A stretch of 64,000 bases of DNA from Granulicella sp. (GTDB lineage: Bacteria; Acidobacteriota; Terriglobia; Terriglobales; Acidobacteriaceae): positions 1-64,000 of the forward strand of contig DAHWOF010000033.1 of assembly GCA_027335345.1 (NCBI GenBank), given 5' to 3'. A program made the position numbers and the translations under genes. Numbering within the stretch: the stretch's first letter is position 1; each line of letters opens with the position of its first letter. Positions 36,219 through 39,374 of the stretch are shown in pieces. The notes under the pieces were generated by a model. That model worked only from the letters and a program-made list of their open reading frames with translations, searched no databases and was not told the origin of the DNA.

Positions 36219-38653
<2,435 letters not shown>

Positions 38654-38697
38654 TTACTCCTTTGTCCAATCGGTGATTGATTCTCTGCATAGCCTGC

Positions 38698-38738
38698 AAC
38701 GAAAACGGCCCACCATCCTCAAGGATCGTGAGCCGTTC
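38698..38738 (-). terminator. Intrinsic terminator/attenuator hairpin in the metYX leader
   Basis: Minus strand AACGGCTCACGATCCTTGAGGATGGTGGGCCGTTTTCGTT: ~15-bp stem (one G-G mismatch, one G-T wobble), tight loop, followed by TTTT; lies between the short Met/Cys ORF and the metY start. Confidence 0.7.
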
Positions 38739-38766
38739 AGAACCTGATCGTATTTGCGCTAGCGCA

Positions 38767-38823
38767 TCAGACCGTTCCGGCACGCACCCACGAGCGGCAA
38801 CACATGGTCATATCCATGTGCAT
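38767..38823 (-). CDS. Putative Met/Cys-rich leader peptide MHMDMTMCCRSWVRAGTV (or the longer 38853 start, MVFCCTNPARMHMDMTMCCRSWVRAGTV)
   Basis: 18-codon ORF with 4 Met and 2 Cys in the first 10 codons, stop TGA at 38767-38769, followed by the palindrome TGCGCTAGCGCA and the terminator 5' of metY. Confidence 0.6.
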   Translation of the reverse strand: MHMDMTMCCRSWVRAGTV

Positions 38824-38860
38824 TCGAGCCGGGTTGGTGCAGCAGAAGACCATGCCCTCG

Positions 38861-38890
38861 AGTATGCTACAGGCCATCCAGCAAATGCAA
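38861..38890 (-). promoter_or_regulatory. Candidate sigma70-like promoter of the metYX leader
   Basis: Minus strand TTGCAT - 18 nt - CATACT; predicted start near 38854, just upstream of the leader ORF. Confidence 0.35.
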
Positions 38891-39008: not shown

Positions 39009-39374
39009 TCAATGCCGGCTGGCCTGAGCACTGCGCAGCAAACAATAAGCCTCGTTGATCGCTGCCATCTGCTGGTTCGCTAGTCTCTGTTGAGCCACAG
39101 ACTCCGAGCCTCTCCGGTCGGGATGCCACTGATTCGCCATGCTATGATAGCCCGCTTTGATCTCGCGGTGCGTGCTCTCCAGGCGCACCTTCAGAATCCC
39201 GCAGGCTCGCTCTTCAGTAAGTGGGAACCGCATCTCTTGCGGGTCTGCAGCGGCTGCGACTGAAGCAGGACAGCCCTGGTCCTTGGTTGCGGATGCTCCA
39301 GACGCGAATTGAGGATTCGAGTCCGCCGGGCGCGTCGGCGTCAGCGTCCACATGGAGGGTCGGCAACCGAGCAA
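39009..39374 (-). CDS. J-domain (DnaJ-like) protein
   Basis: ACGILKVRLESTHREIKAGYHSMANQWHPDRRGSESVAQQRLANQQMAAINEAYCLLRS with HPD motif; start uncertain. Confidence 0.65.
   Translation of the reverse strand: MLGCRPSMWTLTPTRPADSNPQFASGASATKDQGCPASVAAAADPQEMRFPLTEERACGILKVRLESTHREIKAGYHSMANQWHPDRRGSESVAQQRLANQQMAAINEAYCLLRSAQASRH

Follow-up and report, generated by a model that had tools for sequence, protein, structure and literature searches.

A predicted Met/Cys attenuator upstream of metY-metX

Our analysis provides strong, though not conclusive, support for a ribosome-mediated transcription attenuator of the trp/his type in the region upstream of metY-metX in the soil acidobacterium Granulicella sp., which is predicted to read Met and Cys codons and to control these two genes. 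Tryptophan and histidine provide the familiar examples of ribosome-mediated attenuation; the usual regulators of methionine synthesis are SAM riboswitches, T-boxes or MetJ/MetR. The region lies in a contig (DAHWOF010000033.1) of which we analyzed positions 1 to 64,000, hereafter the window. An attenuator with Met/Cys codons had been put forward in an initial annotation of this DNA, and the proposal is now supported by conservation in relatives, by a co-varying antiterminator, by the lack of an Rfam match and by leader codons that track the downstream pathway; no transcriptomic, Ribo-seq or reporter data are at hand. Sequence comparison and folding established a conserved leader with its regulatory codons, a conserved promoter spacing, a predicted terminator and co-varying 1:2 and 2:3 helices (Table 1).

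Table 1. Features of the putative attenuator and of the genes downstream (positions in the window)
Feature	Position	Strand	Description
Promoter (predicted)	38861..38890	-	-35 TTGCAT 38890-38885, 18-nt spacer, -10 CATACT 38866-38861
Leader ORF MVFCCTNPARMHMDMTMCCRSWVRAGTV	38767..38853	-	28 codons + TGA, predicted leaderless
Regulatory codons 11-19	38797..38823	-	ATG CAC ATG GAT ATG ACC ATG TGT TGC
Strand 1 (protector) GCTGCACCAACCCGGC	38828..38843	-	Leader codons 4-9; paired with strand 2 when the full leader is folded
Strand 2 (antiterminator strand), core TCGTGGGTGCG	38780..38798	-	Codons 19-25; pairs with terminator 5' arm GGCTCACGA
TGCGCTAGCGCA hairpin	38755..38766	-	Directly after the leader stop
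Strand 3, intrinsic terminator 5' arm	38723..38738	-	Fold -24.7 kcal/mol
Strand 4, terminator 3' arm and short T tract TTTT	38702..38718	-	From sequence and fold
metY	37328..38650	-	O-acetylhomoserine sulfhydrylase, 440 aa; TIGR01326 above cutoff, 660 bits; PF01053
metX	36219..37331	-	Homoserine O-acetyltransferase, 370 aa; PRK00175 model above cutoff

The metX gene overlaps metY by 4 nt, and metY begins with an ATG at 38650, a Shine-Dalgarno sequence (AAAGGAG) being located between the terminator and this gene. The identities of MetY and MetX were confirmed with NCBIfam. The ORF directly upstream (39009-39374, minus strand) encodes a J-domain-like protein (AGYHSMANQWHPDR), as judged by eye only.

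The TTGCAT-18-CATACT promoter-like pair of the initial annotation was recovered on the minus strand. The 18-codon ORF described there (MHMDMTMCCRSWVRAGTV, 38823-38767) is also present, but it is the in-frame tail of an ORF of 28 codons that starts at 38853 and ends with the TGA at 38769-38767. This upstream ATG had been offered as an alternative, leaderless start, and it is the start we prefer, because the spacing between the -10 box and the ATG is conserved in relatives and no Shine-Dalgarno sequence was found before 38823. In the window, the ATG at 38853 is located 7 nt past the -10 box; relatives carry TTGACA-17/18-GATACT equally far from the leader ATG, and 55 of 87 leaders have a gap of 6-7 nt between the end of the best promoter -10 and the leader ATG. 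A transcription start at the A of the ATG, or at a neighbouring nucleotide, would give such a gap, in agreement with a leaderless reading. Translation of the leader is hence most likely leaderless, with a transcription start predicted at or within ~1 nt of the AUG, although this start is inferred from spacing and remains unmapped. In the Acidobacteria, ~13% of genes are predicted to be leaderless (PMC3160421). A consensus promoter/terminator scanner run with strict rules found neither element at the leader region; a weak promoter, and a hairpin stem in which a mismatch follows the 4 bp closest to the loop, probably account for this.

Distribution of the leader in the Acidobacteriaceae

We located metY homologues in the family Acidobacteriaceae, which includes Terracidiphilus/Occallatibacter gabretensis as well as Granulicella-labelled genomes, and retrieved 103 metY upstream regions. 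A Met/Cys leader, typically of the form MAMCMCM, was present in 87 of them (for example, MPNLSNYAIVVMAMCMCMCMGCGPLRVALERQMR at L058 and MLTATTNATMAMCMYMLHSRGCLRPVAR at L107), and the criterion that the leader ORF be enriched in codons for the pathway end products was met in these 87 of 103 loci. The MxMxMC leader and the terminator are conserved across >20 genera of the family; the proposal of the initial annotation would have been refuted had the ORF not been kept in related Acidobacteriota, and it withstood this comparison.

Sixteen of the 103 regions had no leader. Seven of these belong to distant homologues of metY, at 54-61% identity, and the flank is cut in one of the seven; two more have truncated flanks, of which L017 shows a cut-off leader. 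In another two, the leader sits before an upstream hom gene (L024/L285 and L095/L282), while the remaining five lack any leader despite being close metY loci (L057, L077, L089, L098 and L100). In one genome (G030), the second of two metY homologues is more distant and has no leader (L032).

Of the 20 close acidobacterial metY loci among named records, 19 carry the leader; the 60 metY loci examined from Paenibacillus, Chloroflexi, cyanobacteria and other or distant groups gave five matches, all of them weak. On this sequence evidence the leader is specific to the family. Pattern matches that came from other families within the class proved to be ordinary coding sequence or unrelated, and were rejected as leaders.

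Codon content of the leaders

The regulatory codons 11-19 of the window comprise four Met and two Cys codons, and the score of this cluster (six Met or Cys in nine residues) was not reached by any of 1000 dinucleotide shuffles. A cluster score of at least 4 was attained by about 1.5% of shuffles, compared with 87 of 100 real metY upstream regions. Met and Cys together account for 25% of leader codons, with Cys codons being mixed (TGC 152, TGT 104). Leaders of metY contain on average 4.2 internal Met and 2.9 Cys, whereas those found upstream of cysD contain 1.3 Met and 6.1 Cys. Judged from these counts, the codon content of the leader tracks the downstream pathway, that is, Met plus Cys for metY and Cys for cysD.

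The constraint at codon level that the initial annotation regarded as decisive was also observed: in relatives, the Met codons and one Cys codon are largely kept while the intervening residues drift, with Met codons 13 and 15 being Val in some relatives. The five leaders closest to that of the window differ pairwise by 74 non-synonymous and 15 synonymous codon changes, and codons 22-28 are nucleotide-identical among them. Given this excess of non-synonymous changes, conservation does not extend to the whole peptide, and constraint is apparent only on the regulatory codons and on the RNA strands. This bears on the possibility that the leader encodes an arrest peptide, in which the nascent MxMxMC would stall the ribosome on a ligand (Met, SAM, a metal or a redox state), much as TnaC is an arrest peptide responding to tryptophan. 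The alternating MAMCMCM motif is indeed strikingly repeated; however, many different residues (A, H, D, E, P, R, T, S) are found between the Met codons, the number and order of Met and Cys differ between genera, and the cysD leaders encode different Cys-rich peptides (for example, MKGVYCCCQCFSCCCC). The variable residues and the different cysD peptides fit better with sensing of codons, through tRNA charging, and we regard an arrest peptide as unlikely.

RNA strands and the proposed switch

The hairpin of ~15 bp followed by TTTT that had been noted downstream of the leader is present (38738-38703), with 11 + 4 bp, one internal mismatch and a predicted folding energy of -24.7 kcal/mol. The T tract of the window is short (TTTTC), and those of relatives are comparable or longer. 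Terminators of -15 kcal/mol or lower were found downstream of the leader stop in 75 leader loci, which, with -24.7 kcal/mol in the window, meets the criterion of an intrinsic terminator between the leader and the first gene. The palindrome TGCGCTAGCGCA was confirmed to abut the stop, and 53 of the 87 leaders have a GCG-loop-CGC element around the stop. The leader of other genera ends in ...RMR, with its stop, TAG, located inside the hairpin ATGCGCTAG, such that the stop occupies nearly the same RNA position as in the clade of the window despite a different reading frame.

The Met codons do lie within the inverted repeat CACATGG-ATATGA-CCATGTG reported previously (38820-38801). A reading of this palindrome and of TGCGCTAGCGCA as protein operators, with no role for the ORF, can point to the perfect symmetry of TGCGCTAGCGCA and to the frequent GCG-loop-CGC near the stop. 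Yet the sequence of the Met-repeat palindrome changes between genera while the Met codons stay, the loop length of the hairpin varies as in an RNA hairpin, and both palindromes are located downstream of the predicted transcription start, leaving the operator reading with next to no credibility. MetJ was absent in 51 genomes, and no NCBIfam model for the leader was found.

Across leader loci, the 5' arm of the terminator pairs with leader codons about 19-26, and in 66 of 73 cases it pairs better with the stretch from codon 18 to the stop than with codons 1-17. We exchanged strand partners between species in a swap test (n=75), in which shared ancestry was not corrected for. Strands 1 and 2 paired better with their own partners (-27.1 vs a mean of -22.1 kcal/mol, z -11.2), as did strands 2 and 3 (z -7.8), whereas the control pair, strands 1 and 3, showed no co-variation (z -0.9). 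The 1:2 and 2:3 results, set against the 1:3 control, satisfy the criterion of mutually exclusive antiterminator and protector helices, and the layout deduced from the sequences is the classical 1:2/2:3/3:4 design; the co-varying antiterminator had not been recognized in the initial annotation. Against dinucleotide shuffles alone, the antiterminator energy gave a weak signal (mean z -1.5) because strand 2 is constrained both by coding and by strand 1, and the partner swap is the better control for this helix.

The strong U-tailed hairpin and the co-varying antiterminator in 75 leader loci also argue against a mechanism in which translation of the leader acts otherwise, by Rho-dependent termination or translational coupling, the hairpin being secondary. 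Such a route has a counterpart in the polycysteine leaders of mycobacteria, which have no obvious terminators (PMC1262725) and are described as translation attenuation (PMC13236596), but we consider it very unlikely at metY.

The attenuator that we propose would operate as follows. When Met-tRNA or Cys-tRNA is short, the ribosome would stall in codons 11-19 and mask strand 1, so that strand 2 could pair with strand 3; the 3:4 terminator would then not form in time, and RNA polymerase would read into metY-metX. When Met and Cys are plentiful, the ribosome would continue across strand 2 and reach the stop, shortly ahead of the terminator; with strand 2 covered, strand 3 would pair with strand 4 and transcription would stop. 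Translation of the leader, the kinetics, termination and the response to Met and Cys are all inferred.

In modelled nascent RNA, 2:3 pairing averaged 0.73 over the 75 loci with a stalled ribosome, placed on the first Met/Cys codon, and 0.36 with no ribosome; the value of 0 with a ribosome at the stop codon is trivial, as strand 2 is masked there. In the window, ribosome-free nascent RNA was modelled to favour 2:3 (0.88) over 1:2 (0.07), and default termination in the absence of translation is thus not predicted for this locus. At equilibrium, the full RNA always preferred the terminator, and the switch must therefore be kinetic. A Met attenuator also poses a puzzle, in that the signal amino acid is needed to start translation of the leader itself; severe Met starvation could switch the sensor off, a problem that the pairing of Met with Cys codons may ease.

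Comparison with known regulatory systems

An Rfam scan of the window at gathering and relaxed thresholds returned only CRISPR-repeat matches, below cutoff. The region is covered by none of the Rfam families, among them SAM riboswitches and the T-box, so that a check proposed in the initial annotation did not refute the attenuator, and no Rfam match was found at the leader of 18 relatives. Most genomes of the genus do have a single SAM riboswitch (RF00162), but in the five genomes inspected it is located elsewhere, before a threonine-synthase-like PALP gene encoding a PLP enzyme (L295-L298 and L300); none was found in the genome of the window, which is incomplete. We regard it as highly improbable that a SAM or other riboswitch, or a T-box, spans the leader, with the ORF there only by coincidence. 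At L295, the threonine-synthase-like gene is followed by one for a ThiS-like sulfur carrier, an arrangement that possibly represents a thiocarboxylate route to methionine. SAM riboswitches and T-boxes likewise control Met genes at the RNA level by termination, but no aptamer or tRNA-binding domain was found at the leader.

The attenuators of trp and his in Proteobacteria, Actinobacteria and some Firmicutes share with the metY leader a short ORF with pathway codons and the 1:2, 2:3 and 3:4 helices; the metY leader differs in its Met and Cys codons, its predicted leaderless translation, its occurrence in the Acidobacteriaceae and its link to methionine synthesis. Leaderless polycysteine leaders precede the cys operons of mycobacteria (Canestrari et al. 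2020, cited in PMC13236596; PMC1262725). The metY leader, which is only predicted to be leaderless, resembles them as a short ORF with Cys codons before sulfur genes, those of sulfur assimilation in mycobacteria. At metY, however, Met codons dominate and there is an intrinsic terminator with a co-varying antiterminator, of which none is obvious in mycobacteria (PMC1262725); a polycysteine leader, defined as a Cys run with no obvious intrinsic terminator, is thus not what is found here. The cysS attenuator uORFC-8-2 of the Rhodobacterales, with conserved tandem Cys codons (PMC8632094), resembles the metY leader in being a uORF with Cys codons and an intrinsic terminator, but it has Cys codons only and no Met codons, regulates a tRNA synthetase gene and belongs to a different phylum.

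We found no Met-codon attenuator in the open-access literature; subscription papers were not covered, and this absence is no proof. No conserved RNA element was seen at the methionine operons of Actinobacteria (PMC1262725), and as of 2010 almost no predicted attenuator in the Acidobacteriota had an assigned function (PMC2965389).

Leaders at other sulfur loci

Related leaders were found before hom-metY (L212/L285 and L282), before a tetrapyrrole methylase (siroheme-type) gene upstream of cysD (L232/L261) and before cysD (L235). A Cys-rich leader is present in 21 of 30 cysD upstream regions of the family (for example, MVVFVNRACCCCRMLPCPCPRCCR), which suggests a cysteine attenuator for sulfate assimilation, although the terminators at these loci remain unanalysed. 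We consider it probable, with less assurance than for the metY attenuator itself, that the Acidobacteriaceae have a family-wide, leaderless regulon of sulfur amino-acid attenuation in which codons are tuned to each operon, with Met plus Cys at metYX and hom-metY and Cys or Met plus Cys at sulfate assimilation. The metYX leader would then respond to charging of both Met-tRNA and Cys-tRNA and be the first Met-codon attenuator, with two inputs. The Acidobacteriota would thereby gain a codon-legible sulfur regulon, testable in cultured relatives such as Terracidiphilus (Occallatibacter) gabretensis.

In genus g74 (L200, L201 and L202), a MAMCM-type leader precedes the gene for an uncharacterised protein that resembles ATP-grasp enzymes, the first 150 residues of which had no Pfam match. 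The cysD leaders are located ~150-280 nt upstream of cysD (L255, L257, L254, L263-L269 and others). In the genome of the window, the cysD region (L259, G000:C162) has only a candidate leader with two Cys codons. A short ORF with two Cys codons (MKDTSFRVARCSKLTEKC / MKDTSFRVARCSRHIEVC) is conserved upstream of cysD in the genus of the window (L259 and L256) and may be a diverged cysteine leader.
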